Part shown: piece after piece, positions 1 to 63,908 of the stretch
How positions within the stretch are numbered: the first letter of the stretch is position 1
How the letters are laid out: every line of letters starts with the position of its first letter
Made by a program: the position numbers and the translations under genes
The notes under the pieces: model-generated
What the model was told of the DNA's origin: nothing
The model's database searches: none
Seen by the model: the letters and a program-made list of their open reading frames with translations, nothing else
DNA from: Nereocystis luetkeana
Lineage: Eukaryota; Sar; Phaeophyceae; Laminariales; Laminariaceae
Length of the DNA: 64,000 nucleotides
NCBI GenBank assembly: GCA_031213475.1
Contig: JARUPZ010000018.1
Span: 7,886,406-7,950,405, forward strand
Direction: 5' to 3'

Positions 1-1370
1 TACAGCGACGTTGCTTCGCGCCCGACGCTCAGGCGGCGGGGCCTAGAGACAAAGAGAAGCGCACTCGGCACGCACCTCTCCGTGGATACGTACGAGTACT
101 TGTGGACTACACTGCTGTACAGCAGCAGTCAGTCACAGCATGGAACACAAAATACCACGACAAGTTGGCTCTAGCGCACTCGCCGTCTCTTTGCCGCCAG
201 ACCAGAGGCAATCAGCCTTGGCTCGCACGCTTGGGTCCTACGCGCAGTGCAGTGCACCCAGCGCGTCTCTTCGCGGCGCCAGACCACAAAAACAGCAGTT
301 GATCTCGGCGTTTGCTCGAATCTCTACACACACAATATATCTGATTTTTCCGCATAGGAAGACTGTTTCGATTTGCCAACTTCATATCTGAAAATGCGAT
401 CGGGGCAGAATCTACAGCTCAAAAATCGAACCGCATAGGAAACGGCCTAAGTCTCTCGCTGGTGGAACTTCCAGAATATCCAGACCGCTTCGCCAGTTTC
501 CCGGGTAAACACGCCTGCAAAGGTGCTCAAAAACCTCCATTTCCAGTTCATGATTCATGAAAAACAGGTTGCCGTACTCCGTACTCGTATGAAAATATAA
601 TGAAAAATAAAACAACCGAAGCTGGGAGGTCGGAATTTTACCCAAAAATCATATTTGCAAGCTTCGTGTGATACTATTACTACTATTGTAATATATATAA
701 CAGAGATAATTCGATCGTGCCTTCTACCGCGCATGTACTCGTAGATATACATGTAAGAAATGGGCGTTTTTGATGATGTCCCGGAGTAAGATCGATGTGC
801 GTTTGAGTCGGGATTGTAAGAATCGTTCTCAACCTTCAACAACATCACAGGTGGCCACTTGAGTACGTTGCGGGACTTTGTGGCGAAACCACAACCTTAG
901 CACGTTACGGCGACAGGAAAAACGCATACCGCAACGCTCGCGTAACGTACCAAATGCACCTCGATTGTGAGACGTCCTGTCGTGAAGTTTGCATAACGTG
1001 TGACGTTGTCGTTAGGTTCGTGAATGTTCTTGCAACGTTTGCTTGAGTTTTTTTCGGCAACGCGTATGACACATCTTGGAATTAATTGTATACCCCGTAT
1101 GCGTTGTTATACCAGGTACCTGGTATAGTTTATTATGTACCTGGTACCTGGTATATATTTTTATTCACGGAAGTGAAACATGGATTTAATGGACAAAGGA
1201 AACTGGGGCTTGTGGAGGGGGACTGAATCCTTGGTAGCATATGTTTGATGAAAAGGGAGATGGGAAGAGGGGCATGATGTTGACAATTATCATGGTGGCA
1301 GTTGGTAAAACTGCGAATTATTACCTACCGTCTACGAGCATAGGTATCTGCAATGATGTTTGCATCGTAC
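1..1370. other. No recognised gene
   Basis: I see no exon, RNA gene or known repeat that I can support here. The 16-bp palindrome TACCAGGTACCTGGTA near 1110 and a second pair near 1138 belong to the dispersed TACCWGGTA motif discussed in the findings. Short open frames are stop-limited and show no family resemblance. Confidence 0.5.
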
Positions 1371-5457: not shown

Positions 5458-7459
5458 ATGGTTTGGCGGGAGCAGCAAGGAGATCGAAGGCGCCAAGTGT
5501 GAGTTTTTAACACCCTTGTGTCGATGAACCCTGTAGAGAACGCCGTGAGCTGGCACTCAGTAAGGCTCGTTGAAATGGTGCAAAGAGCATCAGCAGATCA
5601 GCGTTCTGGCAGTAAAAAGACTTCCAAGATTGGCGAAGGTGTCCTCTGCTGTATTGGTCGATTCCGCCCGCAGGCCGAACTACTGCGGTGCGGTTAGCGA
5701 ATCACGCCCGTGCTCCACGTACCAGCACCCCCTCTGTGTTTAGCGTAAGCGGGGGGTGTCAGTCGCGGAGTTACGGCCGCCCTCACTATCGCCCCCCTGC
5801 GAGTACGTACTCGTAGACAGCAGTACATATCGGGCGAACACCTACAACAAGGCTGTCTGATTGCTATATTCGTCTCAACACAGCAGTCTGCATACACCTA
5901 TACCAGGTATACGTGAGTGGCCATTTCTTATCTTCGTTGTCCGCTTGGGCCTTTGTGGGACGTTTTTCCAGTGATTTGATCGGGGTCAGGAGCGAAACGC
6001 GTGTGATGTATTTTGCCCGTCTGTGCCTGTTTTTTTTCAGATTGTCAGCCTCCCATTAGGCATCCACTTCGCGCTGCCAGGTAAACACACCGCTCCCATC
6101 ACACGATTCCAGTACAGCTCTATTTGGTACCAGGTACCTGGTATCATACTTGCTAGCGCTCACCCGTCCTGTAGGTGGGCTGTCGATAGTAGCTGTCGCA
6201 GGTCTCCAGGACAAAAATGTACCTGATGCCTCATATATTTGGTAATTCAAGTAGCTTGTTTCTCGTGGCCGTAAAACAAACCGGGTTATATACCATGGTG
6301 ACCAGAGCTATACAGGATGCCAGGTATGTTGGGAGCTCCCGCCTGATACGAGTACGAGTACATACTCGTGGTAAAGCGAGCTGCGCCGAAATTAGTTTTC
6401 CGCGTTAACCGTACTTGGTATATAACAAACCATCACCAGAAGCCCTCCTTACCCTTTTTTACATCGGGCACGGTCGCCCCGGTGGTTCAAGTGGTTAACC
6501 TCGAATTCTACTTGTTTGAGTCCTGGGTTCGAGCCCTAGGAGGGTCGGACTGACTTTATTTGCAAAAATAAAAAAAGGGATTCAATTGTTGAGAGCGCCT
6601 TGCAGCGTGGGTAGGCACAATTCGATGCGAGTCGACGAGGGAAGAAAAGGCTGAAATCTTCTCGCGATAAAAATGAAGGCACGTACCGTAGCGGGAAGGG
6701 GGGAGAAGAGCCTGCTATGTGACCCCGGATCTGAGTTACGTGTTGGAAGGAGAGAGAGAAGAAGATGTGCGAAGATAATGAATGGGATGGAAAAATATAC
6801 CGGGTATATATATATATATATCATACATGGGGCCGAGAAGAAAAAGGCGTTGCCCTCGTACCTCAAAATACACTGCCTCCTATGGGAAGGAAACATGAAG
6901 AAACCTCCGACCCACGAAAAAGGTAATTCCATGCCAGTTGGCGAGCGCAGCAGCACACCGAAGGGATACAAAGTAGACCTCTGTGCCGGCGTTTTCTTCT
7001 ATGCAGTCTTCGATGTTCCGTGCAGCGACCCAACCACCCGCTGCCCCTCTCTAAATCCTTTGATGGAACACCATGACCTCGGCATACCGTAGACGGCAGC
7101 TCTTAAATGGCCCTGGTGTGTCCCCTTATTGAAACTCGCCGACGACGCTCGGTCTTACCTCCCTGGATTGTCTGCAGTTGACGGCGATGCCTTGGGAGTA
7201 ATTGTTGATAGTAGCACAGACCCATGAAAGCAGAATGCCCCAGAGGCGGTTCGGCTTGTTGCCGCGGTTCTCAGTCAACCGGCTAGCGCCCGGCACCGTA
7301 TGATACGAGCTCGAGTAGACCTGGGTTAATTCCTGCGCCAAAGTTAATGTCTGACAGTCTAACCGTACCAGTGGCAAACTTTCGACAACCATTCCAGCTG
7401 CTGTGTAGACTGCGGTCGTGAGCAAACCTCGCGCCACGTACGTATGTACGTGCGTCTAT

Positions 7460-18913: not shown

Positions 18914-19029
18914 TATTACGGGGGACCGTAGTTAATAAGACCTATGGTATACATAAAAACCTACCAGGTATACTTTCAACCATTTTTACTGACAATATTT
19001 GGTCCTATTAACTATGGTCCCCCGTAAGT
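18914..19029. mobile_element. MITE-A copy 3 with inner TACCAGGTA
   Basis: A complete element with TTACGGGGGACC-type ends. At 18962-18970 TACCAGGTA replaces the plain TA found in the other copies (consensus AACCTATATATTTAACC). Confidence 0.85.
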
Positions 19030-23800: not shown

Positions 23801-26800
23801 TCGCCCTTTTGTTACTTTCTCCCATACCTGGTACAGCTTTATCAACTATGGCCGGCAACCTCTTTTTTGGCATGTTCCTTACTTTATATTGCCATTTCAA
23901 CTTTCTCATATCCCTGTTTGTCTTGAGTGGGTGCATTCCCAGTTCTGCTGTTAATACTGCATTACTAGTCGTACTTGAGCATCTTAGATTTTTTTTAGCT
24001 GCTGTCATCTGTACTGTTTCCAACTGTTTTACGAGTTTCGCATTCCCTTCCCATACTTCTCCTGCATATTCTAGCTTTGGTGCTATCACATTCATCAGGA
24101 TACATGTCTTAATCCTGGTGCAAGGTGCGAGTCTGTTAGGATCGCATCCATCTTGCCTATGTGTGCTTTACCCTTTCCTATTACTTTTGCTATATGTGTA
24201 TCCCAAGAGCAGTCTTTTGAGATCTTTACGCCAAGGTACGCATACTGGTCTACTATCGGCAATTCATCTTCTCCCCACTTCCAACTGAAATTTATCGGGT
24301 TCACCTTATCTTCGTTACAAACAACTACTGCGCATTTCTTAGGGTGGGGGGGGGGGGGGGTGTACTCGATAGGAGATATGCACTCGATCTCATGTATGGC
24401 CGAAGTCGTATGACCAAAGACCCTCGCATCCCTATAATGCCGGGACGGAGCATGTCGGGTTTTCACCGACCAGGCAGACATTGCTTGCACCAAGCGCGAA
24501 GCGCCGTGAGGTGTCCGGCGAGTCACATGAAGGGTGAGCTGCATCCTAGGAGGGGGAGGGGGGTGTACTCGATAGGAGAGATGTACTCGATCTCATGTAT
24601 GACCGAAGTCGTATGACCAAAGACCCTCGCATCCCTATAATGCCGGGACGGAGCATGTCGGGTTTTCACCGACCAGGCAGACATTGCTTGCACCAAGCGC
24701 GAACCGCCGTGAGGTGTTTGGCGAGTCGCATAAAGGGTGAGTTGCATCCTACCATGAACGGCTTATGAGGCCGACTTGCATATGGATGACAGCTTCAATG
24801 AGCAAATTTAATTTCCGGTGCAGCCACTTCCAGCGACAGCAATGGGAGTACTATGTAACTGCCTCTTGGGTGTCTTACCATGAACACTTCGTGATACGAC
24901 CAATTCCCTTGTGCGGAGTAAAGGTTCTTTACCTCGCACAAATGATCCAACTCGACGACCAGCTGTGGGCGACGGCCAAAAATAAAAATAAAAACGGTAC
25001 CCTGATTTTCTATTAATAGCTCACATAGTGCGCGGCATGTTTTACAATGTCGTTGCCCACCGACGCCAACCCAACCTATACCGGTATATAATAGGGGGGG
25101 GAGACGGGGGGGGGGGTACTTAAGTCATGCATGGTCGTGGTCGTATGACCATAGACCCTCGCATCCCTACAATGCCAGGACGGAACGCGTTGGCTTTTCT
25201 CCGACCAGGCGGGGGCGAAGGCAGTTCACGCCACCCAGAATTATGTTGACCCCATCAGGACTCCACTGCACCCACTTTTTTTAGAGAAGGCTGCTCGGAA
25301 TTTGTGTTATTTTTAGGGCAGTCAACAGGGAATACTTCGAAGTATATCGGCGGGTCGCCCAAGAACGCCCCCGTCTCGCTCTCGTCCTGTTATTCTATGT
25401 GTCCCGTTTTTTTTTTTTTCAGAGTTGTTTTCTCACCCTCCCCGGTTGCTCGCTTACGTATCGTCCGCACTGCCCTGTCCTACCGTAGCCCTATTTTTTT
25501 GGTTGTTTCTCGCTTTTTCGTAAGTTTCAGAGGTTTCAGAGATGTTGTTCCCGGATTGGTCGTCGCCCACAGCAGCACGAACGCTGTACGGCCCTTTTTC
25601 TTCTCCTCCTGACCCCGCGATAGCGCCCTGAGGCGTCTCCACAGCAAAGCTCGAGCAGCTGCTGAAAGTTTCTGCACAGCTATTAATAGCTAGAGCTGCG
25701 ACTTGGCTGAATAGAAATCGCCGACTGCTGCAGGTGCTTTTTTCTTTTTTTTTTCTCATCCCATTCATTATCTTCGCACATCTTCTTCTCTCTCTCCTTC
25801 CAACTCGTAACTCAGATCCGGGGTCACATACCCCTTCCCGCTACGGTACGTGCCTTCATTTTTATCGCGAGAAGATTTCAGCCTTTTTTTCCCTCGTCGA
25901 CTCGCATCGAATTGGGCCTACCCACGCTGCAAGGCGCTCTCAACAATTGAATCCTTTTTTATTTTTGCAAATAACGTCAAAGTCCGACCCACCTGGGGCT
26001 CGAACCCAGGACTCAAACAAGTAGAATTCGAGGTTAACCACTTGAACCACCGGTACTACAGTTTGTTGGCTCGATATATATGTACGTATGCCTGGTATAT
26101 ATTTTTCATGTGCCGACTTGCCGGGTTCTGAGCATTTTGTGTCTGCTGACTGTGAACCCTCTTAGGACCCCAGTCCCGTTTCGGGGACAAACTACCCATA
26201 ATTAGAGTGCTTTGTCCCCACATACGGGTGTGCGGTGCTAAAGGGGCTAAGTAAACAGGTGCGCTTCCTTTTTTCTTCGTATCTGTCTGAATGGTCTTTG
26301 GTGGCTCGACGTGTGTTTGTTTGTTCGTTTTCTGGTTGAAACTTATGTCTGTTCGTGTGTCTCGCTTACTTTACTTGGCCACCCCAATTACTATAATGAC
26401 TATTACCGGTGGGGCATACTGTAGTATCATACTGTTTTTGTTTTGTTTTGTTTTTTTTGCTTAGCTTCATCTTCTTTTTTAGGTTTTTGTCTGCTATTAA
26501 TAGTCTCCTTTTTGCTTCCCTGGTGTCCGCAGTGGTGGAGTGCGTATGCTTGTTTTTTGTTTTTGCCTCTGTTTTTACTTGAGGTATTTCTTCCACTCCA
26601 GAGTTATTGGAGCCTGTCCTGCGACCACGGACTGCATTGTATTGTGAGTTAATGTGAGAACAACAACAACAACAAACAACAACAACAACATCGTGAGACA
26701 TACAGTAGTATTAGATAACATATTTTAATATTACGGGGGGCCATAGTTAATAGGACCTATGGTATACATAAAAACCTATATATTTAACAATTTTACCAAC

Positions 26801-29800
26801 AATATTTGGTCCTATTAACTATGGTCCCCCGTAATAGTGACGCATCGTAATACATACCTGGTGCCAGGTAGTGAGTAATGCATAGTAAGACATAGTAAGA
26901 CATGGTACTACATAGTAATACATACCAGGTACCTCGTAGTAATATGTATCCCTCTGTCCCATTATATATAGCGCCGGTTTTTCCCCAATTATGAAACCAA
27001 ACGGAGCTTATATGTCGGGACAGAGTGGTATAACACATACTACACCAGTAGCAATGCATACCAGGTACCAGGTCGTAATACATGTTAATACATACAGTAG
27101 TAATACAGTAGTAACACATACTGTACCAGGTAGTAATTAGAACCCACAGTGGACCCCATAGGCCATGTTTCCCCCTACATTTCCCCACTATTGATATGAG
27201 TTGGTTTTGATGACTACCGCACGTGCCCTCGCAATAGCTGCCAAGTCCAGCCAAGGCATTGCTTACTCGCGGCAGCCCCACCAACAGCAGCTTCCCTTAG
27301 ACTGATGCTTTTTCGTGCTGCTGTTCCTGGTGCTTGCAATTGCTGCCGCTGGTGCTGCCGCTGCCGCCGGTGCCGCCACCCACGCCTCTCAGGAAACAAC
27401 CGGACGAACTCGTACGTGAAAGATGGCAAGCTCTTCCTGCAGCCCGACGCTCACCTCCGACTTCATAGGGGAAGACCAGTTAAGGGCGAAGCGCCGGCAC
27501 AACAATCGCGCAAAATCGTGCGCCCATTTTTGGGCCGATACGTGGGGGCTGTGGGGTTGCGAGAGCGCCCAAAGCTGTTGATGATGCGATCAACAGCGGC
27601 GCAATCCGACGTGATGTTGGTACAGTAATATTGCTGCGCCGTACCGATGCGGTGCATACATACGTACTTCGCTCACACGAGCATGAAACCTGGGAGCCGT
27701 CGGGATTTGTAGAGGAACCCTCTGCACCCCCCCCCCCCCCCCCCCCCCCCCCCGCCCGAGCAAGAAATGCGGGAGCCGTCGGGGTGAAAGAGTATTCTTC
27801 CGCCCCCTGGTCGGTGAAAACCCGACGTGCTCCGTCCCGGTATTGTAGACGTGCGAGGGTCTATGGTCATGCGACTATGGCCCTTCATGATTGAACGAGT
27901 ATCCCCCTCCCCCCCCCCCCCCCATACGACTACGGCCATGCATGAGATCGAGTACATCTCTCTTATCGAGTACCCCCCCCCCCCCCCCCCGACTCCCGCC
28001 CCCGTCGGTGAAAACCCGACATGCTCCGTCCCAGCACTGAAGGGATGCGAGGGTCTGTAAGTCTTTGGTCATACGCCCTACGGCTATGCATTATTAATAG
28101 ATCGAGTACATATCTCCTAACGAGTACACCCCCCCTCCCCCCCCCTCCCCCCTCGTGCCTCCTCCCGCCCCCCACGCGCGGGACGCTTGCTTGTTTGCGT
28201 TAACATGATTTCCTTTCGGGAGTTACTTTTGCCCGTCGGAGCTGCGTCTCTGCACACCCTTGGTATAGGCTGATTTAGTGTCGGCCATTGCTTGGCGGCG
28301 GCGGGGGATCACTCGATATCATGCATGGCCGTAGTCGTACGACCATAGACCCTCGCATCCCTACAATGCCGGGACAAAGCACCTCCCGTTTTTTTTTTTT
28401 GGGGGGGGGGGGGTGAATACAGAACTCTACCCATAAAAGCCCTTAGTCCTAGCAGCCCTAGCCAGACCCTCCCCCGCTCTTATGGCAGAGCACTAAAGAG
28501 AAGAACCCGCATAGTGGGAGAAATGTGAAATGTACAAGGAGGAGCGGGATGTGCTAAGAGGAGGATACATGAGGAAAATGAGGCGAAGGCGACATGGAAG
28601 AGTTTTGTATGAGGAGAAAAATAGACGATTGTGACGTGGAGAAGTTTGGGGATACCCACCATGGAGAAGTTTGGTACGGGAACACAATCGGTATCTATCA
28701 TCCTAGGAGATAGGTGGTGGCAACAGGCGGCGAAGCAGGAAAGGGGATAAATAAGATTTAGCAAAGCATGTTTTCATGCAGTATATGGAAACAACGTAAA
28801 TGAGCGCCCCAACTGTTGGAGGCAACTGTTGGAGGTGTCTCTACTATTCATATTACACGGGCCATACTCGTATTAAATAGGACCGACGGTACGCATACAA
28901 ACCTATATATTTCGCTACTTTCACTATTACGGGGGGCCATAGTTAACAGGACCTATGGTATACATAAAAACCTATATGTTTAACTATTTTTACTAACAAT
29001 ATTTGGTCCTGTTAACTATGCCCCCCCGTAGTAACAACATTTGGTCCCATTTACTATTGTCCCCCGTGATAGGAGTAGGAACAGCGCTTCGTCTCGAAAG
29101 GGAGGCGTGGTCAATGGTCAAATGCCTTTTAAGGCAGGCCACAAATGGGTACTAACGCCCCTCCGCTCCCGACACACACTAAAACCCAACATGCTTTGAT
29201 TTTTTTTATTCACCTTGGGAGGCATCCGGGGTGTGCAGAGTAGTTTTGCACACCTACCTGCCCGACTTGCAAACTCAGAGGTGTTCAGAGTTGTCACACC
29301 GCACTAAAACCACCCTATTTCGACTTCCACCACAGGAGGCACCCGGATCCGGGATGTGCAGAGTTATATTTGCGCACCTTCCTGCCGGGGTTTCCACTTC
29401 AGGGGTTTGCATAGTTGTATTTGTCACAACCGACCGGGTTTACTATCAGGCGTCACCCTTCTGTTCGGCTAGACTGCCTTGGTGGACCAAAACTGGAAAA
29501 AGTTTTCGTCCTGTTTGAGGTACACAAAGGTACTTTTTCTTCGAGTTTTGCGGTTGTACAGCCCGCAAAAATTCGACGCCCCTTGTGCGCTCCTCCTTCC
29601 CCGCCCCCCGCCCCACCCCCCTAACTACCTCCAACCCACAACCCGCACCCTACCCGGCACCGCCTACGGCCTCCTCGTAACGAACACCGCGCTCTCGCTC
29701 TCGTGTTTTTCTGCGATATGTATGTGCACGGCGTCGTGAAGGGTGAGCGGAGTGATTCCGACAATGGTCGACATCTGGGGGATGTCGCCCGCCGATCAGT

Positions 29801-32800
29801 GCACAAGGTGGGTTCGATAGTCCTCGGCGTTGTTCGGGATGGTGGGGCCGGGGTATGGACCCCGAGTTGGGTGGGTGATGGCGCTGGAGGGGTTTCGATG
29901 TTTTCGGTAGGCGGTGGCGTGTCCTGCAGGGTGGGGGAGGGGGTGTACTCGATGGGGAGGGTATGTACTCGATCTCATGCATGGGCGTAGTCGTGTGACC
30001 ATAGAGTGGCGTGTCTGCGAGGGGGGGGGGGGGGGGGGGGTGGGGGGGGGGGGATCGCGAAAAAATATCACGAGTCGATAGCATGACGGCCGCACGGGCT
30101 TGCGGTAACCGCATCGGGGTGGAGGGCCCGCCGTGTACATCCAGTAAACCTGCCAACGGTACAACGCGCCAGGGTTGGGGGTTAGAGGCTTCACAGATTG
30201 AACACACTGCACGATCTATCATCATATTAGGTCCTCACCCGCCTTTGTGACCGGCGTGCACCTTTGTGACCGGCTGTGCACAGGATCTTGCGTAGTACAG
30301 ATCCGACCCGGCAGGAAACAGCAGTGCTAGACCATGCAGACCGTACGGCTCCAACCAAACCCGGTAAGATTGAGCTATGAATATGTAGACCATACGGATC
30401 ATGACTCAATCTGTCCTGGAAAGTCTGGATCATGAACCGGGAATCGGTGGGCTGCGGCTATGATATGTGTGCGCGTGTTTCTTTTTCCGCCCCGGCTCTA
30501 TCCTGTCCGCTACGCGGTCTGTTCGCGTGTCTCACCCCTCTTTTTCTTCCGTTACCGTGTACGTAACTCTCCCCGTTCACCCGGGAACGGACTGTGATTG
30601 GCCGAATTCACCCGCCAACTACCTTCGTGCGCGCGACGAAACCAACGGAGAGCAGCAACATGTTCTACGGATGCTCCCGCGGCAGCGACATGGGCGCCCG
30701 TCACGCCATCAACCCGCTATGTCGGCGAGGGTAAGAAGGATGTTTAAAAAGTACGTGTGTCGACGCCATACTTCGCTCACTGCGCGTGCGCTCCGCATCG
30801 TCCGTCCGTCCGTCGTGTTTTGCTCGTCGTTTTTTTTCCCGTTTTTCGTTTTTTTTTCTTTCCGTTTTCGTTTTTCGTTTTTTTTTCTTTCCGTTTTTCG
30901 TTTTTCGTTTTTTTTTTTTTCATCCTTTCTTTGCACCGTCGTGTTGACCGCCGAAGTGTGTCTCTGTCTGTGTGTCTGTGTGTGTGTGTGTGTTTTTTTT
31001 TTTTTTCTCTTTGTGTATTTTTTGTGTTTTGTTTTTGTTTTGGCCCTTTTGGAGGTTTTTGACAGCCGTGCAGTTCGCGTCTACTATGTGTACTACTCGT
31101 AGCGCGTGTTTTTTTGTTGAGCGTGGTTAGTGAAATCACGGTGAGGTTCTCGCTCCCCCTCACATGGCCTCGTCGCTTGACCAATGAAGTGCAGCCGAAT
31201 GCAAAGCCAATGCAGCCAAGGTGGCTGATCATTTCGCACCAAGATCAATTTCGTGGGTTCGAGTATCACCGAGTGCGTACTCGTTCGAGTAGGGACTTTT
31301 TCTTTCATAAAATTGGTCAGCTGAAAGCGCGAGAGCGTGAGTCAGCAACGTTCGGTGAAAATCGACCAGCGGTGCTACGGAACTCCATGCGCGATAAAAA
31401 TGAGGGCACGTGCCGGGGGGGGGGAGAAGGGACGACATCTGTGATCACGGCTTGTCCAGAGGATCGCTGAGGGTAAAACCTCCTATTACGGGGAACCATA
31501 GTTAATAGGACCAAATGTTGTTAGTAAAAATGGTTAAATATGTACCTGGTAGTTTTTTTTTTATGTATACCATAGGTCCTATTAACTACGGCCCCCCGTA
31601 ATACGAGTTAAAAGTGATGATATATACACTTATACTTCGTATATATAAACATACTGTACCACTCTGTCCGAAAGCATTAGATCCGAGTGGTTCTTAAATT
31701 TATAAGGCTGACACACTGGCACAGCAGTAGCAGTATTACGGGGGACGATATTAAATAGGACCTACGGTACACACAAAAATCTATATATTTCGCTATTTTT
31801 ACTCACAATGTCTGGTCCTATTTACTATGCCCCCCCGTAAAATAGTAGTGCACTGATTGATCTGGCCAGCATATTCGCCAGTAGTATTATCTCACTCGCG
31901 CCCGGGATACACGCCATTTTTTTTTTTTTTCACGTGTGGCACGGAAACCCACCAAACGCGTTCTGGGAGGAGAACAGTAGAGAGGAGAAACAGTGTACTG
32001 CTACGATCCAGTATACTGGTTGGGTTTTGACGACAGTAATATCGCTGCTGACTGGGGCCATCCAGTGCCTATAGCCCTACATGTTTTCGGGGACGAAAGC
32101 GGCGGCACTTTTACGGAGGAACGTACAGTGTTAGCGACGCGCCCTACGATAGAGGTATGTCGTAGCACATTTCCGCTAAAACGGTTTCTGAATGACGAGG
32201 TTCCTAAACCGAAAATCGTCGGAGTGCCAATTTTGTTTCAAAATTTGACATTTTGGTACTTACTTGGGGGCCGTGGGATTCTCCATCGGGATGCAATTTG
32301 AGTTTTTGTTGAAGTCAGTTTTCGGGCGAGGTATAGAGCTCCTTAAGCGAGGAGCCTCAGAAAAAGATATAGTGTGAAACTACATCGTAGAAAAAAAGCC
32401 TCTACAGTAGCAGTGATCAGAACCAACTATGGTGTTCAAACATACTGTGGGAGGCCTGTTTTTTGTAGTCGATCGTGGGTTCTGATCCCTTTTGTATGCC
32501 CCTCACGTGAACGGCAAAAGCCTCGTAAAATTTCCGAGACAAGTGCCACTACAAAATGATCCTTACGATCAGGGGACAGAGTAGTAGCATAATATTGGAT
32601 AGAGGGAATTCCGCGTTCGGAAACCAAAACAATGACGAGACGCGAAGAAACCCATCGTTGGTTTCCTTGTTTTGGGGGTTTCCCCCTGTTTGTTGATCGC
32701 GTTTTTGCTGTTGCTGGTTTTGCTGTTTTATAGGTGAGGACCGCGGGAACCTTTTCTTTCCGCTACGGGCGGTTCGAGACCAAAGTGAAGCTACCCAAGG

Positions 32801-37235: not shown

Positions 37236-40200
37236 TTATCCCGTTTATTTTCTTCGCACATCTTCTTCTCTCTCTCCTTCCAACTCGTAACTCAGATCCG
37301 GGGCCACATAGCAGGCTCTTCTACCCCCTTCCCGCTACGGTACGTGCCTTCATTTTTATCGCGATATATATTTTGCTCATCCCATTTATTATCTTCGCAC
37401 ATCTTCTCTCTCTCCTTCCAACTCGTAACTCAGATCCGGGGCCACATAGCAGGCTCTTCTACCCCCTTCCCGCTACGGTACGTGCCTTCATTTTTATCGC
37501 GATATATATTTTGCTCATCCCATTTATTTTCTCCGCACATCTTCTTCTCTCTCTCCTTCCCACTCGTAACTCAGATCCGGGGTCACATAGCAGGCTCTTC
37601 TACCCCCTTCCCGCTACGGTACGTGCCTTCATTTTTATCGCGATACCAGTATATATTTTGCTCATCCCATTTATTATCTTCGCACATCTTCTTCTCTCTC
37701 TCCTTCCCACTCGTAACTCAGATCCGGGGTCCCATAGCAGGCTCTTCTACCCCCTTCCCGCTACGGTACGTGCCTTCATTTTTATCGCGAGAAGATTTCA
37801 GCCTTTTCTTCCCTCGTCGACTCGCATCGAATTGTGCCTACCCACGCTGCAAGGCGCTCTCAACAATTGAATCCTTTTTTATTTTTATTTTTGCAAATAA
37901 AGTCAAATGTCCGACCCACCTGGGGCTCGAACCCAGGACTCAAACACAAGTAGAATTCGAGGTTAACCACTTGAACCACCGGGGCGACCGTAATATGAAG
38001 AGTTCGAGCGGGCCTTCTTCTCCATGATATGACGTCACTCGTGTACGTACGGTGCAGGACTATCTGTTGACCCTTTTACAGCAAACCGCAGTTTTAGTTT
38101 TGGGGACAAACCACTCAAATTTTGAGAAGTTTCTCCCGCAAACGGTCGACGCGGCATTCTCCATCCGTTACGCAGGTCATTCCATTGCTTTATACCAGTA
38201 TACAGAACACAGCAGATGTGCGGGGTGCACTCATTGTTTTTTTTTTTTTTTTTTTTATCTCGCTCTACTTTTCCAACAAAATGTGTCGTGTGGATGGAGG
38301 GAGCTACGTGTGATACGGGCGGCTATTCTACTGTACAGTATGTTTTGACCTGTTTCCCTTTATCGCCGAAACAAATTAATCCACCCTGTTACGGGGGACC
38401 ATAGTAAATGGAACCCAATGTTGTTAGTAAAAATTGGGATATATACAGTTTTTCATGTGTACCGTAGGTTCTATTTACTATGGTCCCCCGTGATAGGAAG
38501 AGCTCAAGTCATTAGTGATTTTATCCCCCCCCCCCCCCCCCCCTCCCCTGTTATGGTCGTACGGCTACGGCCATCCATGAGATCGAGTACACCTCTTCTA
38601 TCGAGCACACCCCCCCGCTATCGTTTTTAGAGGTAATTAATCCACACTATTAATAGCTCAAGTCATTAATGAACTAATTTCATCGGCCAGTACAGCTACT
38701 TTTTATACCCAGCTCCGACACTCACGTGCGTCCATTTAATCTCCAACACCTCCATATCTTCCACTCCAGAGCTATTGGAGCCTGTCCTGCGACAACGGAC
38801 TGTATTGTATTGTGAGTTAATGTGAGAACAACAACAACAACAACAACAACAACATTGTCTCCCTCTTTTTGTCCAAAATAATTATTCCACACTTCTGCAG
38901 CTGCTGTAGCCATTGACTCATCAATGTAACCTACCCCTACCCCCGTACATAGTGTACCTGTACCATATGTATTATTGATATTATAGTAGCGCTCTGGCCG
39001 TAAATATGTATAGTCGCCGTTTCGTGTTGACGTCGGAGTCCCAACGGAGATTATATCGACATCAGAGTCCAAACACGGATTATATTTTGCGAACCAAGTA
39101 GTTATCAGTGTTATTGTTACGGGGGGCCATAGTTAATAGGACCTATGGTATACATAAAAACCGATACCTGGTATATATAACCATTTTTACTAACAATATT
39201 TGATCCTATTAACTATGGTCCCGCGTAATAATAGTTTTTTCCCCTGGCGATAAGAACGCGCGGGTTCAGTAACGTTTGACAGAACGACGGGCGAAGATAA
39301 CAAGCAGAGAGCACCACCCACCCCGTCTCGTAAGTCGTTACGTCCCGGGCGGAGCTGGAACTTTTTTTTTTTTCACCAAAGCTACCGTTACCGGGGACCA
39401 ACAATTGTGAGTAAAAACGGCGAAATATGTAGGTTTTTGTGTTTACCGGAGGTCCTATTTACTGTTGTCCCCCGTAATAAGAATACACTATTAGTATATA
39501 CTATTGCAGGGGACCATAGTAATTAGGACCTACGGTAGACACAAAACCCTATACCTGGTATATTTTATCCATTTCACCAACAATATTTGGTCCTATTTAC
39601 TATGGTCTCTCGTAATATACAAGACTCGCCTTCCCCGACCTCATGAAGGGCAGAATGGACTCACCCACGTTACGGCACACCTTACTGCATATCACTCGGC
39701 CGCTTCTCTAGAAGGTTTTCGTATATTTCGGGAAACCATATTATATAGGACCTAATTTTTTTTTTTTTTTTTTTTTTTATCCTCCGACGGATTGGTAAAA
39801 ATAAAGCTTAAGCTCACCACACTTCCACGTTCGTGTCGTGTGTCAATTTAGCCCAGTTGGGCACGTTGACCCGACCTGACAGCACCTAAGGTACACACAA
39901 AAACCTATATATTTCGCTATTTTTTCTAACAATATTTTGGTTCCCTATTTGTTATCGTCCCCCGGAATAGTAGCATTTGACACTTTTAGTACCGCAGTCC
40001 CGGTTGGGGACAAAACTACTCGGAATTTGAGTGGTTCGTCCCCGAAACGGGACTGCGGTTTTTGCCCTAAAAGGCAAAAAAGGGTTATATTCCAAACGTT
40101 CCTTGTGTGTAGGGACGAGGGTGGTGTACAGCAGCAGCAGCAGCAGCAGCAGCAGTGGTGCGCTCATTTGCTGCACGTTTGCTGTGTGTGAAAGTTCGTG

Positions 40201-43200
40201 CTCCGTCATGTTTTTGGTGATGGTTGTTGTTGTTATTGTTGGTGGTGGTGTTGGTGTTGTTGTTTTTGTTTTTGTTGTTGTTGTCGTTGTTGTTGTTGTC
40301 GTAACCTTTCAATGGTCCGTGGTCACACAAGACAGACTCCAGCAATGCTTGAGTGAAAAAAGAAGAGGCAATGGTGGCAGGGGGGTGTACGCCCCCCACC
40401 CCCGGATTTTTGGGCCAAACGGGGGTGTAGGGAAAACAAGCGGGTGGCAGGTGCCCGCCCGCACGTGCGCCCGCCTCCGTCAAGTTTAATTCTGACGTGC
40501 TGACAAGACGCCTGCAGCCAATGCCGAGCATGCACACCTTGGTTTTCCCTTTTTTCTCCGGGACGTTATTCAGGCTAGTGGCACCGTGGCGCCGGAGGTT
40601 GCGCAAGGATCCCCCCCCTTTTGACTGCATTTTTTTTGGGGGGGGGCGGGGGGGGGGGGGGGTATACCCCCGCAATTCTACTTTAACTCACGCATTTCCC
40701 CCTGTTGACTACGATTTTCCCCTATTTGACCGCAAGAGAAAAGCCCTTTTCGACCCTCTCGACATCTTCTAAGTTCCGCCGTGGATCTGCTGCGAACAGG
40801 CCCGAGAACAGACCCACGGCGGAACATTGACGGCGGAACATTGGGGCGACCGATGTTCCGCCGTGGGTCTGTCCAGACCACATTCATTCGCGGCGCAGCT
40901 TCGATGCTGTCGAGAGTGGTCAAAAAGGAGTACCAGTATGTTTTCGTCCAAATGAGGGGGGGATATCCTAGCCACCAGGGTGTAGTACATAGATTTAATA
41001 CTAGTATTACGGAGGACCACAGTTAATAGAACCTATGGTCTACATAAAAACGTATATTTTTGACCATTTTTACGAACAATATTTGGTCCTATTAACTATG
41101 GTCCCCCGTAACAATAGTTGATTTGAGGGGTCATACCCCCCCCCCTTCCCCCCTCCCCCTCCCAAATTGTAGTACGTAGATAGGCAGGGAGTTCTTGTGC
41201 AGCCTCCTTCACCACGGAGCCGTTAGCCCCAATAACGTGCCGGAAACACACAAGAATTTGTTTTTAGGTGTGCGTGCTCGGCGTTGACTGCACAGCAGGT
41301 GTCTCGCGAGCGCGTCCTAGTTGAATTCGAGGCACGGTGGGGGGGCGTGAGGGCACCTGCCTCGGGCCTGCTCTTCCTTATACCCCCGTTTGGCTGAAAA
41401 ATCCGGGGGGTATATGTACCTCGCTTTGACCCTTGAAGCTACCAGGTACGAGTATATTTTTTATCCATGCCATATTTTGTTTTTGGTCTTCGCCCTCTTG
41501 TTGTTCCGGCCCCCTCCTACTTTAGTCGACAATCAGATCCGGGGTCACTATTAATAATAGGCGTTTTTTCCCCCCCTCTCCCCTCTCCACTACGGCACGT
41601 GCCTATTGATAGCATTTTTATCAGCGAGAAGAGTTCAGCACTTTCTTCCCTCGTCGGCTGGCGCCGAATTAATCGCGCATGCTGTGGGTATATGGGGGGG
41701 TGTACTCGATAGGAGAGGCGTACTCGATCTCATGCATGGCCGTAGTCGTATGACCATATAGGGGGGGGGTGAAACGAGGTAATTATTGTACGTGATAAGT
41801 ACCAGGTAGTGAGTTTGAGTTGACTGCAGTATTTCGGGGGACCATGGTAAATAGGACCTACGGTACAAACAAAAACCTATATATATATTTTTATGTATTT
41901 TTTTCTAACAGTAGTTGGTCCTATTTACAATGGTCCCCCGTAAATTAGTATATAGATTCATGAATAAAAAAGAGCCTAACTATCTATATCAAGCTCACTA
42001 GTTAGGGACGCGCCACGCGAGGAAATTGGAGTAAGAAAATGTACTCAGGGGCGAGCGGAGCACTAAATTCGACCACTCTGGCCATAAATATAAGAACCGT
42101 TTTGATTGAATATTAGTGTAAAACTTGTCCCTACATATAGGGACAGAGTGGTAAACACAACAAAGTACATCGAAGTATATGCTCAAGGTTGAAAAAAGAA
42201 CGGTTTTCACAACAAGATTCGGAGGCTTTTTTCAGGTTACGAGGCGTTTCTTGTTGGCGGGACCATGCTGTGTCATCGCCCCGGTGGTTCAAGTGGTTAA
42301 CCTCGAATTCTACGTGTTTGAGTCCTGGGTTCGAGCCCCAGGTGGGTCGGACTTTAACTTTATTTGCAAAAATAAAAAAGGATTCAATTGTTGAGAGCGC
42401 CTTGCAAGCGTGGGTAGGCACAATTCGATGCGAGTCGACGAGGGAAGAAAAGGCTGAAATCTTCTCGCGATAAAAATGAAGGCACGTACCGTAGCGGGAA
42501 GGGGGGAGAAGAGCCTGCTATGTGACCCCGGATCTGAGTTACGAGTTGAAAGGAGAGAGAGAAGAAGATGTGCGAAGATAATAGATGGGATGAGCAAAAA
42601 AATAAAAAAATAAAAAATAAAAAATACTATACGACGTATACGTATTGTGACTTTAAATTTTGTTTTTGTTGTTTTTTGGGAGACGATATCGCTCCAAAAA
42701 ACTATCGATCTATGTATATAATATAGACATATATTTATGAAGAATAACAAAAATATATACCAGGTATATGAAGAGCAATAAAAGAGGCGCTGTGAGATCG
42801 AAAAATTACCCGTCTTTGCAAGCTTGGTGTGACACTGTTGTGGAGGAACACAATAATCAGAACCAAAATTGATCGCCTAAGCGTAGTGAGATACCTGTTT
42901 TTTAGGTCTATGTTGGGATCTGATTATTAATATTACGGGGGACCATAGTTAATAGGACCTATGGTATACAAAAAAAACTATATATTAAACCGTTTTTACT
43001 AACAATATTTGGTCCTATTAACTATGGTCCCCCGTAATAGTACCGTATCACACTAGGGTGGTAAGATAACACACCCCCTGGGACGAATTTCAGACCCGCT
43101 TTTTCCTCCAAAAAATGCCTTAAGGGGCACGCATAACGAACATGGTGGCTTTGGAAACACTTCGTCGAGAAGGTTGCATGCATGGACGTATCGCTCGGCG

Positions 43201-43328: not shown

Positions 43329-43953
43329 TACTACCACTCTGTTCAGAATTATAGGGAACGGTTTGATGGAGCGTCAATACACAAAATATCCTTATTTTTG
43401 GGGACAGAGTGGTAATGCATTCCGGGGGACCATATGAAAGAGGACCTACGGTGCACACAAAAACCTATATATTTCGGTATTTTTACTAACAATATTTGGT
43501 CCTATTTACTATGGCCCCCCGTAATAGTATGACGGAGGCGACATCTATGGTGTCCGTAGCCAAAAACGGTGTGTATTCGTAGGGGGATACATACACATGC
43601 TTTTTTGGATCCATCTTGGTGTTCGATTTTACTCCCAGATACCAGTATGTAGTACTGAGCCCCCTCCCGTAAGAGCGATTTTGCCTATTAATAGCTCGAT
43701 CACGCATTTTACGGGTTCGTGCGCGTACTGCAGTTTTTCTAGAGCTAACCACAAACTATTACAGGTTTGGGTTTTTGATAGGAACGAAGTCGCTACTTAC
43801 CAAGTACCAGATACCTGATGCCATAAGAGGCGACTGCAGTATATATATATATATATATATGTTATATATATATATCTTCGTTACTGGTATATATTATGTA
43901 AACATTACCTGGTATGTAATATATACCAGGTACCTGGTATATACCAGGTATAT

Positions 43954-49900: not shown

Positions 49901-50359
49901 GAGTGTTGGTTGTGTTGTGAAGGCGTTTTGTATTTTTTGTAAGAAAAAGTTATGAACGAGTGCATGTATGCATGTATGTGCGCGTTACGCTCACACTGCA
50001 ACATGTTTAGTTGCTGACCCTCGAGGGCATGGTTATTGCCTTTTCTCGTTGTGCCTACTGCTGTAGAGACGGATGGAGTACGCACTCGGTGAGACTCGAA
50101 CCCACAACCTGACTTTAGTAGGGACGAGTTTCACCCAGTACATAGTAACTCCATCGGGGACGCCATTTTACCTTCCCTCGTCGTGCCCCACGGTGCTTCC
50201 CTGCCTCGACTGCTGTGCCGAGAGCGGCCTCGGGCGTGCGTGATGTGCTATACTGCTGCTGTTACTGCCGCTGCTGCTGCGGCTGCTGCTGCTACTGCTG
50301 CTGCTGCTGCTGCTTTGCTGTTGTTGCTTCGTGCAGCTGCTGTGTTGCGCTGCTGTTGC

Positions 50360-50390
<31 letters not shown>

Positions 50391-53300
50391 CACGCAGTCC
50401 GCCTCACGAAGTAGGTCGGCCTGGGATTCAGTATTATGCCTTTCCTCCTCGTGCGCCACCGGGCTCCCCTTCCTCGACTGATGCGTCAGGGGCAGCCTCG
50501 GGCGTGCATGATGTGCTACTGCGGCTGCTCCTGCCGCTGTTCTGCCGCTGCTCTGGTGCTGCTGCTATGCACGTGCTGCTACTGTGCTGTTCTGCTGCTG
50601 CTCTTGCTATGTCTGCGATATGTTTTTGCTGCTGTCACCCGTGATAATGGTAATTATGCAAGTCACCCCCTCTCGGGGATGTGTCTCCGCATCTTGAAGT
50701 TGAAAGACGGATCCATCTGCTTCGGGAGCTGTACGAGTACCGTCTCGTAATTGACATTTGTTTGGCGTCTCGGCGAAGGCCTTGTGCTAGCGTATTTTTT
50801 TGTACGATATGCACCTGCACGCTATGCTGCTGCTGTGTTTGCTGCACCAACGTAGTCGTCGGCGCTCTGCACTGCCGATTAGCTCCATCGACTGATGCTC
50901 AACTAAAAGTTTTGAGGCTATCTGCACACGAAGTATTATGGGGGACCATAGTTAATACCTGGTAGGACCTATGGTATACAAGAAAACCTATATATTTAAC
51001 CTTTTTTACTAACAATATTTAGTCCTATTAACTATGGTCCCCCGCAATAGTACGAACACCGAGCGTCTCGCACGCGACACTTTTTTTTTTTAAGTGCTGT
51101 ACGAACGAGTTATGTGTTGTACTGGATGGCCAATGACAATGGTCATTTTTCCTGTGTTTCCAGCGTTTTCCTTCATTTCACTCAAAGTTGTTTTTTATAC
51201 CGCACCCCTTGGCAGTACTGTCGCATACCTTTTTTTTTTTTTTTTTTTATCCTCCGGCGGATTGGTAAAAATAAAGCTTAAGCTCACCACACTTCCGGTA
51301 CGCGTTCAACCATCATGGGCATGCGCGGAGCCGTCGGCGGGCGTCGGCCCGCCGACGACGAAGCCCCCCTCGTATACATACTATACCCGGTGTATTTTAC
51401 TACTGCCCGTATGCCTTGTTTTTTGCGCACCTTAAATAGAGAGAACAAAGGCCTGTGCATTGTTTTTGTTCGCTTTATTCGGGGTATGTTTGTAAAACTA
51501 CTGCCTTGCATTTTTCTTGTGCGTGATTTTGACAGGGAGGAAAGATGTGGACCAACAGCGACGAGGACGCCGCGATGAAGTTTCACGAGGCCACGCAGCA
51601 GTGGTTCAGCACATGGGACGGGACGGACGCCGCGATGCAGGTTTGGACGGCGTCGTATTCCTAATATTAGTAGTGTTGGATATCGCATCGGAAGTTTCGA
51701 TACTGTCGAACTTTCGATATTTCGAATCGAACGTGTGCTGCCCTTCATCCCCTGGTATCTATTCGCTCATTTCTTGTGCAGTTGTTGTTGTTGTTGTTCT
51801 ATTTGCCTGGTTTTCTATATACCTGGGACCGGTATATATTTGGGTCCATCGCGGATTCTGACTATAGCCCCTCGTACTACAGTACATACGTACTGCAGTC
51901 GCTTGGTAAGGCCTCGCTGTCGGTCGTCTTGTTTTAGTCGGTACCTGGTAAGCAAATTAGGCCCCACAACGGTAACAGGAGCACGACCAATTACTGTTGA
52001 CACGGGCGGTGTCGCTTGTTCGAGGTTAAGGGCACGGCCACGGCATTGCACTGCTGTCACGATGTGTCGTTCTGGTCTCGCGCTTGGTGCAAGCCAACGC
52101 CTCTGCCTGGCCTTGTCGGTGGAAACCCGACGCGCTCCGTCCCGGCGTTGTAGGGATTATGCGAGGGTGTGCAGCCATACGACTACGCCCATTCATGACA
52201 ATCGGGTACACCCCCCCCCTTCCCTCTTCGACCCCCCTTCCTCCACCCCCACTGTTTTTCGGTACGTTGAGCCCCCCCCCTATTATATACCTGGTATAGG
52301 TTGGGTTGGCGTCGGTTGGCAACGACACTGTAAAACATGCAGCTCACTATGTGAGCTAGAGAACCAGGGTACCGTTTTTTTTTTTGTGGCGATCGCCCAC
52401 AGTTTGTCGTCGAGTTAGATCATTTGTGCGAGGTAACGAACCTTTACTCCGCACGAGGGAACCGATCGTATCACGTAGTGTTCATGGTAAGCACCCAAGA
52501 GGCAGTTACGTAGTATTCCCTTCACTGTCTCTGGAAATGGCTATACCGGAATAAAATTAACTCATTGAAGCTGTCATCCATATGCAAGTCCGCCTCACAG
52601 GCGGTTCTTAGTAGGTTGCAGCTCACCCTTCATGCGACTCGCCAGACACCTCACGGCGCTTCGCGCTTGGTGCAAGCAATGTCTTCCTGGTCGGTGAAAA
52701 CCCGACATGCTCCGTCCCAGCATTGTAGGGATGCCAGGGTCTATGGTCATACGACTACGGCCATGCATGAAATCGAGTACATATCTCCTATCGAGTACCC
52801 CCCCCCCCCCCGGCCATGCATGGCATGAGTACCCCCCCCAACCCCCCGTCTCGAAGCCTGGTCGGTGCAAACTCGACGTGCTCCGCCCCGGCATAGCAGG
52901 GGTGCGAGGGTCTATGGTCATGCATGATGACGAGTATACCCCCCCCTCCCCCCCATCCCGTCTCGAAAGGGATACGTGGTCAATGGCCGAACGACTCTAG
53001 GCGAGCAACAAATGAGTACCCCCCCCCCCCCCCCCCCCCCTATCCCCCCCTCCCTCTCCCCACGCTTTTTCATTGAACAGGTGGACTCCGTCAAAGTCTG
53101 GCAGAAGAGGGCGGACTACTACTACGGTGACGCCGCGCGCGCGAGCCTCTCGGGCACCGGCGCGTTCCCTGATGGCCAGGGCGCGCCTTCTTCGTCTCCC
53201 CCCGACTTCGGCGGCGACGTAGGTGGTTTTGGTGATGACAGTGGGTCCGGGGGGGGCGGGGGGGGGGGGCGAGCAATGCTCTGCTGTACCTCGGATGCTC

Positions 53301-58215: not shown

Positions 58216-58900
58216 AATAGGAAAACTATGTATGGTGGGGAGGTGGGTGGGCAGGCTTATGTAGCCTACTGCTTGTACCGAGAGGGAGAGGAAACTTACA
58301 ATGCTCGGAGGCAAGCATGACACCAGGCCCCGGGTACTACTGCTGCTGCCGTATCAAAATGACAAAACAAACATTACATTTTTTTTTGGTACCTGGTCTG
58401 ATACATATAGTGCACAAAAACACCCGTATATATTTATACTAGAATCGAAGACACCGCATACGTCCGGGATACGCGACCTGGTTGTAGAATATATCGACTC
58501 ACGCGACGCTTCTCAAACCTACCGGCCATGGGGGGGTGGGGGTTGCGGGACATCAACAGAAAAACGCCCCCTATTTGGGGCTTACAAGTGACATTACTAT
58601 AAGATGGCGGGTGTTTCGATGCCAGGTGCTGTGGTGCGGGTCTTCCCCACCCGATCAATGGGGCTGACGTACGTAGGCCCAGACCCTACAGACATAGTAA
58701 ACAGACTGCATACGTGAGTGTTCAGGTCCCGTTGTTGTGGAACATGCCCCGCCCGGTTTTCGAGCTTGTATGCCCTCATCTGGTTTATCTCAGTGACAGG
58801 AGGTGCATGCACCGGGGGTATACACCTGGGAGCGTTGGTTTTGTTCCTATTTGGGAAACCAAGACAAAAACAACAACACCTCAGCTGAGAGATGAAACTC

Positions 58901-59335
58901 TTACCTCGAAGCTCGTACCTCGAAACTCGTACCTCGAAACTCGTACCTCGAAACTCGTACCTCGAAACTCGTACCTCGAAACTCGTACTTCGAAACTCGT
59001 ACCTCGAAACTCGTACCTCGAAACTCGTACCTCGAAACTCGTACCTCGAAACTCGTACCTCGAAACTCGTACCTCGAAACTCGTACCTCGAAACCCGTAC
59101 CTCGAAACTCGTACCTCGAAACTCGTACCTCGAAACTCGTACCTCGAAACTCGTACCTCGAAACTCGTACCTCGAAACTCGTACCTCGAAACTCGTACCT
59201 CGAAACTCGTACCTCGAAACTCGTACCTCGAAACTCGTACCTCGAAACTCGTACCTCGAAACTCGTACCTCGAAACTCGTACCTCGAAACTCGTACCTCG
59301 AAACTCGTACCTCGAAACTCGTACCTCGAAACTCG
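58901..59335. repeat. 14-bp minisatellite, about 31 units
   Basis: Unit CTCGTACCTCGAAA, almost perfect, with single changes at 58985 and 59096. It has no stop codon in several frames on either strand, so long but meaningless open frames arise. Three units (42 bp) give a 14-residue repeat. Confidence 0.95.
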
Positions 59336-59573
59336 TGCGTACCAGGGTATATATATACATTTACAAGCTGTGTGTGATACTTCGCATGTCTTACATACAT
59401 ACATACTTACATGATGGCAAAAAATGATCTACTGCTGTAACGGCTTAAGGTGGCATGCCCGGTCGCCGTGCAAGGGGGTAAAGGGGCCTTACAGAGTCGT
59501 TTGCGCAGCGCGTTGCGAGCCGACAACGCAGGCCCGCGCGCAATGCACAGGGCAGGCAGCACCAGCGTACCGT

Positions 59574-59657
59574 ATACCACTCTGTCCCGAAATATAAGCA
59601 CCATTGACATACTTACATTCAACACAAACGTTCCTTGTATTTCGGAACAAAGTGGTA
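59574..59657. mobile_element. MITE-C copy 4
   Basis: TA-CCACTCTGTCCCGAAA ... GAACAAAGTGG-TA, 84 bp. Confidence 0.85.
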
Positions 59658-60333: not shown

Positions 60334-60594
60334 CGTTGGTGTCGCTCGTAGTTGCGGCACGTGAGGGGCGTGCAGCATATACGGCACCGCCCATCGCGGA
60401 GGTCGGGGGGAAAAGCCATCTCTTATCTCAGATGAGATGGGCACACATGAAATCACTTTCAACTATATACTGTGTTTAAACACGTGGGGGCATACCTGCA
60501 TTCATGTGCAACGCTCCATCTATCTGTCTGGTGGTAGGCGATGAAAAATCCCTGTTTTGATCATGACCAGACTGTACTCTATAGTACCACTTTG

Positions 60595-60667
60595 TCCCGA
60601 TTTATAAGGATCGTTTACATGAAATGTTTCTATAGAAGCGAACCCTAGATGTCGGGATAGAGAGGTA
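60595..60667. mobile_element. MITE-C copy 5
   Basis: TA-CCACTTTGTCCCGATT ... GTCGGGATAGAGAGG-TA, 73 bp. Confidence 0.8.
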
Positions 60668-63333: not shown

Positions 63334-63785
63334 ACTGTCAAGTTATCTATGTCATGTTGTTATGCTATGTTGAACCGGCAGAGAAAGGCACGTGCCCATT
63401 ACCGGTAGGACACGGGCAAGCACAACACAAGCACAACTTGGTGCAATACATACCATGGGCATACCTGGCACATTTTTTTTTTCTTTTTCGGCATTTTGTC
63501 AGGCACGTGCACCGACCGCTGTGACGTCTCTCGCGAAGAAGCTAGATATTGCTTGTCCATCTCAGCTGCATGCAGCAGCAGTAGTATAGCAGCCTTGTCC
63601 ACCAAGGTTCACTGCGGGACGTCGAGCTTTTAGACTCATCGTATGTACCAGGTATCTGGTATGCAATAATTCCCTTCCTTTTATTATATATGCAAGGAAG
63701 GGGCTCCTCAGTGGCCGCCAGAGGCTTGTTGCACATTCCGCCGGGGCCGCCGGAGGGCAAACTTTGCGATATACCTGGTACCTGG

Positions 63786-63908
63786 TATTACAGGGGACCA
63801 TAGTTAATACCTGGTAGGACCTACCAGGTATGGTACATATAAAAAACTATATATTTAACCATTTTACTAACAATATTTGGTCCTATTAACTATGGCCCCC
63901 CGTGAATA
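63786..63908. mobile_element. MITE-A copy 23 with two inner TACCWGGTA words
   Basis: TACCTGGTA at 63808-63816 and TACCAGGTA at 63822-63830, each at a TA of the consensus. A TACCTGGTACCTGGTA pair abuts the left end (63773-63787). Confidence 0.9.

Follow-up and report, generated by a model that had tools for sequence, protein, structure and literature searches.

Sleeping Beauty has a CAG overhang that anneals with itself around an A:A mismatch, and its product is TACWGTA. The Mos1 mariner ends in CCAGG and leaves TACCATA, and the terminal inverted repeat (TIR) of Stowaway elements is CTCCCTCCGTCCC-like. An excerpt on Sleeping Beauty and mariner describes nicks three bases inside the element that leave 3-nt 3' overhangs, which become the footprint (PMC7827188), and an excerpt from another paper gives 2-4 bp as the range of Tc1/mariner footprints (PMC7913693). 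Sections of three further papers report terminal-base footprints and end-joining repair for Stowaway/Osmar, Ppmar2 and Triticeae elements, and plant footprints of the Stowaway type are varied in those sections, with one to four bases retained (PMC4561436, PMC3660474, PMC9632168). In one plant case, as far as the excerpted account goes, an insertion lies beside an old footprint.

The DNA analyzed here is a 64-kb window (C18:7886406-7950405) of an assembly of 465,085,209 bases in 1,987 contigs, and this window together with four 50-kb stretches makes up a 264-kb sample. We place at roughly 80% the probability that the word TACCWGGTA, which recurs throughout, is an excision footprint left by TA-inserting elements of one cut-and-paste family, the 83-bp MITE-C among them, with a putative transposase that would leave CCA 3' overhangs and end-joining that would overlap the terminal As. 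This reading is based on the gain of the word at TA, its genome-wide number, a target preference common to the word and MITE-C, and the presence of MITE-C at a footprint TA. A search of the open-licence PMC literature for the word as a footprint (TACCTGGTA, TACCAGGTA) or for mass footprints in brown algae found none; the titles of the TACCAGGTA matches listed do not concern transposons, and the sole match to brown algal TIR or MITE literature in that collection deals with a green alga.

Abundance of the Word

Exact TACCWGGTA occurs 48 times in the window versus a mean of 0.52 and a maximum of 2 in 100 dinucleotide-preserving shuffles. The earlier note on this DNA had counted more than 40 exact words with either centre base, and both centres are indeed present (A in 23 words, T in 25). 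Genome-wide (465 Mb) there are 182,395 words versus 1,744 copies of the reversed word, a 105-fold difference, and the excess over controls that the note had proposed to check is thus found at both scales. CCWGG ranks first among the TA-N5-TA words of the window (48), and the runners-up (17 and 14), judged by sequence, are MITE-A's own. The 264-kb sample has 136 exact words where 2.5 are expected, and single-base variants are also in excess (143 versus 58 expected). Rough arithmetic on the ratio of exact words to variants gives a mean divergence of ~6-7%.

Apart from the stacked words and those in MITE-A copies described below, the word scan of the window found single words starting at 5901 (5901..5909), 15318, 15545, 15558, 16301, 16468, 16817, 17755, 18073, 18603, 20757, 23825, 26923, 27059, 27124, 36037, 41440, 41800, 42758, 43906, 43942, 45667, 45683, 46027, 49180, 51942, 52288, 55298, 55653 and 61019. 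The window also holds a tandem array (58796-59420) of ~30 copies of a 14-bp unit in which several frames are open.

Gain of the Word at TA

In repeat copies and in recent duplicates, TACCWGGTA stands in place of a plain TA, which amounts to a gain of 7 bp. The word had been placed by the earlier note at seven positions in MITE-A copies (18962, 31543, 39165, 39552, 50956, 63808 and 63822), each time where other copies have TA. It is present at all seven, the other copies have TA in the MITE-A alignment, and both the joined-flank test and the duplicates agree. The MITE-A copy at 63789..63904 (+ strand) carries two footprints, TACCTGGTA at 63808..63816, which lies at the "hot" TA discussed below (AGTTAA-TA-GGACC), and TACCAGGTA at a second TA (63822..63830). 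The copy at 50937..51045 (+) has TACCTGGTA at 50956..50964, the same TA as at 63808. The remaining copies are those at 18917..19026 (+) with TACCAGGTA at 18962..18970, 31487..31600 (-) with TACCTGGTA at 31543..31551, 39118..39227 (+) with TACCTGGTA at 39165..39173, and 39505..39614 (+) with TACCTGGTA at 39552..39560. All of these footprints were assigned by the MITE-A alignment and by joined flanks.

For the joined-flank test, 120 word runs in the 264 kb had enough flank and 42 of these had a paralogous site in the sample. At least one plain-TA paralogue was found for 33 of the 42; the other nine had only a word-bearing paralogue (four), TACGTA (one) or a changed base or shifted alignment (four). 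Insertions of at least 3 bases between repeat copies were compiled independently of the word in a list of 479 entries, in which one event can recur at several lengths. CCWGGTA is the commonest type among the 53 TA-bounded entries (15 of 53), which also include TTAATA (5), CAGTA (3) and TCAATA (2). Clean 7-bp gains at TA number three among the duplicates in C1:200-250 kb: a pair with 95.9% identity has two of them and a pair with 97.8% identity has the third. A further duplicate pair, at 94.7% identity, has TACGTA in one member and TACCAGGTA in the other. Since duplicate pairs differ by the word, gains lasted until recently on a scale of a few percent divergence.

A Hot TA in MITE-A

One TA of MITE-A is found in every state, plain, with the word and with MITE-C. 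This hot TA, the central one of TAGTTAATAGGACCTA at the MITE-A end, is flanked on either side by a TA at a distance of 7 bp. The plain form gives 21,233 exact matches genome-wide to CCATAGTTAATAGGACC, and the form with the word gives 595 to CCATAGTTAATACCWGGTA; these matches count ends, so that one MITE-A copy may count twice, and the two patterns demand a different right flank. The word share is 2.7%, by our own arithmetic a roughly fourfold excess over the per-TA mean. MITE-C occupies the hot TA in two copies (L070 and L071). L069, which matched together with L070, is not MITE-A.

The pattern of CCA followed by a non-G base has 23 matches at the hot TA, comprising 11 CCATGG-TA (TACCATGGTA), the 2 MITE-C copies, 1 CCATA, and a remainder of 9 that are single variants or rearranged, some of them with flanks in common. 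CCAGG followed by A, C or G has 26 matches (control 1), comprising 19 CCAGGG-TA, 1 CCAGGGG-TA, 5 deletions or changed bases, and the locus L072. Both patterns end in a non-A base and so leave some matches out, and the ends CCAGGT and CCTGG fall outside them. L072 (C22:6709100-6709800) holds a ~480-bp element with GACCCG-rich repeats and ends CCAGGGCTTTTCGCGGGTC, which lies in MITE-A between two TTAATA copies. Because of this 6-bp duplication the element, which has CCAGGG ends, is not a TA element.

Among the 100 matches listed of the 595, 74 have T and 26 have A at the word centre, an asymmetry that symmetric overhangs do not predict. MITE-C is also scarce at the hot TA, with 2 copies beside 595 words versus ~11 copies beside 136 words in the sample. 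The T excess and the few MITE-C copies suggest that some of the 595 are MITE-A copies amplified with the footprint inside.

MITE-C and Its Target Preference

MITE-C, the family proposed as the source, is an 83-bp element with ends TA-CCACTCTGTCCC and with terminal inverted repeats (TACCACTCTGTCCC at both ends). Repeat comparison places copies in the window at 26947..27030 (84 bp), 43332..43414 (83 bp, TACCACTCTG...CAGAGTGGTA) and 59575..59657 (83 bp, with TA 7 bp away on both sides), and more diverged copies at 60585..60667 and 42072..42153. The exact right end has a partner end within ~300 bp at 12 of 20 loci, and 8 of these 12 pairs are 82-84 bp. The family inserts at TA with TA duplication, as the single TA of other MITE-A copies is replaced in L070 and L071 by two TAs with MITE-C between them, and L048 is a MITE-C inserted in a different repeat, with plain TA in the remaining copies of that repeat. 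When the flanks of 20 MITE-C entries, some of which overlap, were joined and compared, no clear footprint paralogue emerged in the sample.

The flanks of words and of MITE-C were compared. Of 240 word sides, 22 that resembled a second word were dropped and 218 were kept. TA occupies +6,+7 outward of the word TA on 51 of the 218 sides (0.234) versus a background of 0.060; A at +1 is rare (0.06 versus 0.20), and the base at +7 is A or T with a frequency of 0.85. The preferred spacing at word sites is TA-N5-TA, the same spacing as that of the word itself. MITE-C right ends (exact, 13th flank base not A) number 712 genome-wide, of which 100 are listed and 97 distinct flanks were analyzed. Among these matches listed, TA is at +6,+7 in 28 of 97 flanks and, once 18 word-like sides are removed, in 12 of 79, which is weaker than for words. 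The target profile of MITE-C correlates with that of words at 0.72-0.73, for which the comparison value with MITE-A is 0.00, and the MITE-C and MITE-A profiles correlate at -0.04. When scored with a matrix of word sites, the 79 MITE-C sides reach 0.355 versus a background of -1.088, with 0 of 20,000 random draws as high, and 52 MITE-A sides score -1.235.

The proposal that MITE-C is a candidate source is strengthened by the two paralogues in which a MITE-C of 82-83 bp occupies the TA that bears the word in 595 others, and by the shared target preference. The comparison of copies finds terminal bases between two TAs, the form of an excision footprint. None of the outcomes that the earlier note had named as speaking against its reading (no MITE-C at footprint sites in paralogues, no excess of words, words at non-TA positions) was found.

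A unit with one MITE-C end (L034, L045, L052; L054-L056) was tried as an autonomous element and rejected as a dispersed ~260-bp repeat. This unit begins with the MITE-C end, and its copy at L045 appears to be accompanied by a long duplication of flank. The unit may be a retroposon which acquired an end of MITE-C.

Probable Footprints of MITE-A and Other Classes

MITE-A provides a positive control for assigning scars by target flanks, since its flank preference recurs around a second word, TATTAATA. The target flanks of MITE-A are G.60, T.58 and A.56 at +1..+3 (from 55 sides whose end was readable, at 59 sampled loci), and outside MITE-A and microsatellites the flanks of TATTAATA give.57,.49 and.57 for the same bases (45 of 56 sites kept, 11 dropped). 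MITE-A has no preference for a TA 7 bp away. TATTAATA is in excess in the sample after masking (49 versus 1.4 expected), is the product of two TTA overhangs if TA pairs with TA, and has counterparts in TTAATA insertions relative to a paralogue. It is probably MITE-A's own excision footprint. The predicted MITE-A footprint at 25011..25018, which emerged from the insertion list and the flank analysis, has one paralogue without TTAATA. Other TATTAATA copies of the window kept in the flank analysis are at 2359, 4029, 18212, 25681, 26495, 28092, 38648, 41549, 43686, 54134, 59759 and 62350.

The insertions that distinguish repeat copies also include a third class, TA-CWG-TA (L015:4632, L018:7279, L030:6341). 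TACWGTA occurs 103 times in the sample versus 34.9 expected and forms a separate, weaker class whose flanks are other than those of the word. A one-sided product (TACCATA/TATGGTA) was also sought in the sample, and TACCATA is without enrichment (21 versus 32.2 expected). TACGTACGTA is in excess in the 264-kb sample (10 versus 0.36 expected).

Transposase Search

Transposase profile searches scored only the best candidates and ignored introns. In these terms PF13358 had 0 matches in the genome, while its control matched in 3 of 14 genomes, and PF01359 had 0 matches in the genome with a control that was silent too. PF03184 (DDE_1, pogo-type), the only one of the three families searched with matches, had 28, several of them in open frames. 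Ten of the 28 loci were scanned for a MITE-C end pair flanking the DDE_1 match; none was found, and single end matches were weak and scattered. Tc1/mariner-like DN..H motifs in the sampled frames amounted to two chance matches.

Several other candidate elements and frames were seen. At L067:1036-2951 (C34), inverted repeats TAGCRCCGGGGTGCGA flanked by TA and spaced 1,916 bp apart enclose a pogo-type DDE_1 frame, and L068, which is ~3 kb from L067 on the other strand, has the same DDE_1 score. The 3.2-kb inverted pair at 48031-51267 of the window was considered as an element and rejected, as it looks like two dispersed-repeat copies with A-rich tails. A LINE-like open reading frame at 23099-23845 (- strand) has protein matches that are mostly metagenome proteins. 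The named ones among the 120 matches listed are Ectocarpus sp. CCAP 1310/34 (58% identity) and Sphacelaria rigidula (65%), and a match of 82% to a protein in a bacterial MAG is probably to an algal contaminant. Judged by these matches, the genome appears to be that of a brown alga.

Proposed Mechanism and Alternative Sources

In the proposed mechanism, the putative transposase would cut so that each flank retains the last three bases of the element (CCA) as a 3' overhang. The two terminal As would then be overlapped by host end-joining, which would keep one of them to give TA-CC(A or T)GG-TA, a way of joining that we infer from the product. Complete fill-in of the CCA overhangs would yield CCATGG, whereas overlap of the terminal As would yield CCWGG. 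The earlier note had already suggested that an element with CCA ends and 3-nt overhangs would leave the word; the minor class TACCATGGTA (11 at the hot TA) fits this, while the overhang itself is one that we infer. The main product requires an A:A overlap without any base pair, which counts against the model, and the fill-in product CCATGG is rare, with 11 copies beside 595 words at the hot TA and a single one in the masked 264-kb sample. The main weakness of the CCA-overhang model is that CCWGG outweighs CCATGG by more than simple chemistry gives.

An element ending in CCAGG with a 5-nt overhang would give the product more simply. Such a source would be another TA element, now rare or lost, whose 5-nt (or 4-nt) overhang self-anneals by G:C pairs around an A:A mismatch, and MITE-C would share its transposase and targets without being the main source. 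This would account for the prevalence of a product with exactly five bases and for CCATGG being rare, and the 4-nt variant TACCAGTA is also enriched (27 versus 8.2 in the sample), with flanks that correlate with those of the words at 0.63. However, TACCAG-ended inverted repeats in the 264 kb include no convincing multi-copy pair, whereas MITE-C has ~11 copies. The few CCAGG-type pairs found are weak and single, for example one with TACCAGGG ends and 4/16 mismatches (C18:1.00-1.05 Mb) and another that is CAG-rich (C1:200-250 kb). At the hot TA, where CCAGGT and CCTGG ends lie outside the pattern, the 26 matches to CCAGG and A, C or G are footprint variants or deletions except L072 with its TTAATA duplication, and the 11 CCATGG fit CCA overhangs. 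We consider a CCAGG-ended source unlikely.

A functional palindrome under selection, such as a binding or recombination site, would be a near-palindrome with a degenerate centre and very many copies, as TACCWGGTA is. However, within one dispersed repeat the word is found at several TAs, where it adds 7 bp, duplicates differ by the word's presence, and the excess extends to single-base variants as in decay, which makes selection on the word highly improbable. That the word is a product of simple sequence or replication slippage is barely credible, for although some of the words are found in stretches that are stacked or rich in TA (43906-43950), the empty sites seen have no tandem source of CCWGG and the target preference is fixed at 7 bp.

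Stacking of the Probable Footprints

Under the excision reading, the enzyme would prefer TAs that have a neighbouring TA at a distance of precisely 7 bp, and TA-N5-TA is also the form of the footprint. Each excision would in that case leave a better landing pad and favour stacks. In the window, stacked footprints were found by the word scan at 1110..1125 (TACCAGGTACCTGGTA), 1138..1153 (TACCTGGTACCTGGTA), 6128..6143 (TACCAGGTACCTGGTA), 43924..43939 (TACCAGGTACCTGGTA) and 63772..63787 (TACCTGGTACCTGGTA, adjoining a MITE-A copy), and TACCAGGTA at 63646..63654 is followed by TCTGGTA, a stack with one base changed. Stacked runs make up 16 of the 120 word runs in the sample versus ~2.5 expected if TAs were hit at random, and the stacked form TACCWGGTACCWGGTA occurs 15,917 times genome-wide versus 2 for the control. 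Word sites with a TA neighbour 7 bp away are ~3.6 times enriched by our own arithmetic, which accounts for part of the stacking and not all of it. The earlier claim that the new TA of each footprint explains the stacks therefore stands in part, as stacking is real and is aided by the TA-N5-TA preference but is only partly explained. Most likely, the footprint creates a preferred target, which partly explains the 15,917 stacks.

A broader proposal, to which we give even odds, is that the transposon builds its own landing sites: the enzyme prefers TA-N5-TA, the scar is TA-N5-TA, and scars draw insertions whose excision lengthens them. Such a loop would have left >180,000 recognizable scars (gains of 7 bp that total ~1.3 Mb) as well as 15,917 stacked pairs, with footprints that outnumber elements and form a genome-wide logbook of germline excision. 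If true, the TA-N5-TA feedback is a simple case of a mobile element that shapes its own target landscape.

Comparison with Known Systems

The same process may extend to another genome. Five contaminant contigs with MITE-A ends (L001-L005), found in bacterial MAGs, contain 4 words in 36 kb, 3 of them on L005, where one lies inside MITE-A at the same hot TA. Repeats shared with these contigs are 71-88% identical (best 30 alignments), and no MITE-C was found in their 36 kb. The contigs point, on very little sequence, to the same process in another genome. The MITE-A end was also scanned against viral contigs and had no match there.

The system described here is like Sleeping Beauty and Tc1/mariner in its TA target, its element with TIRs and the terminal bases between two TAs. 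The three-base CWG of the Sleeping Beauty product differs from the five bases of the word. The difference from Tc1/mariner lies in the five bases, in the PF13358 and PF01359 searches with 0 matches (the PF01359 control being silent), and in scars that are kept by the hundred thousand. Mos1 has the same first three bases, CCA, and the 3-nt overhang presumed here, but its product TACCATA is not enriched (21 versus 32.2), and one TACCATA is found at the hot MITE-A TA. Pogo/JERKY-type (DDE_1) elements differ in that no MITE-C end pair surrounds the match in ten of the 28 loci.

Stowaway MITEs with Osmar/Ppmar transposases, in the portions of the plant literature cited above, share the short MITE, the TA duplication and terminal-base footprints. 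The MITE-C TIR CCACTCTGTCCC may resemble that of Stowaway. Plant footprints in the cited portions are varied, whereas one product dominates here. The excerpted reports describe excision footprints site by site or in assays, whereas here they are countable across a genome. Footprint counts show, even after the loss of an element, how often it left its sites, what ends its enzyme produced and by what joining the host repaired them. Scars can be assigned to elements in a general way by matching the target preferences of the two, which worked for two families here. Excision footprints are of a known kind, while their number, uniformity and self-targeting in this genome appear to be new.
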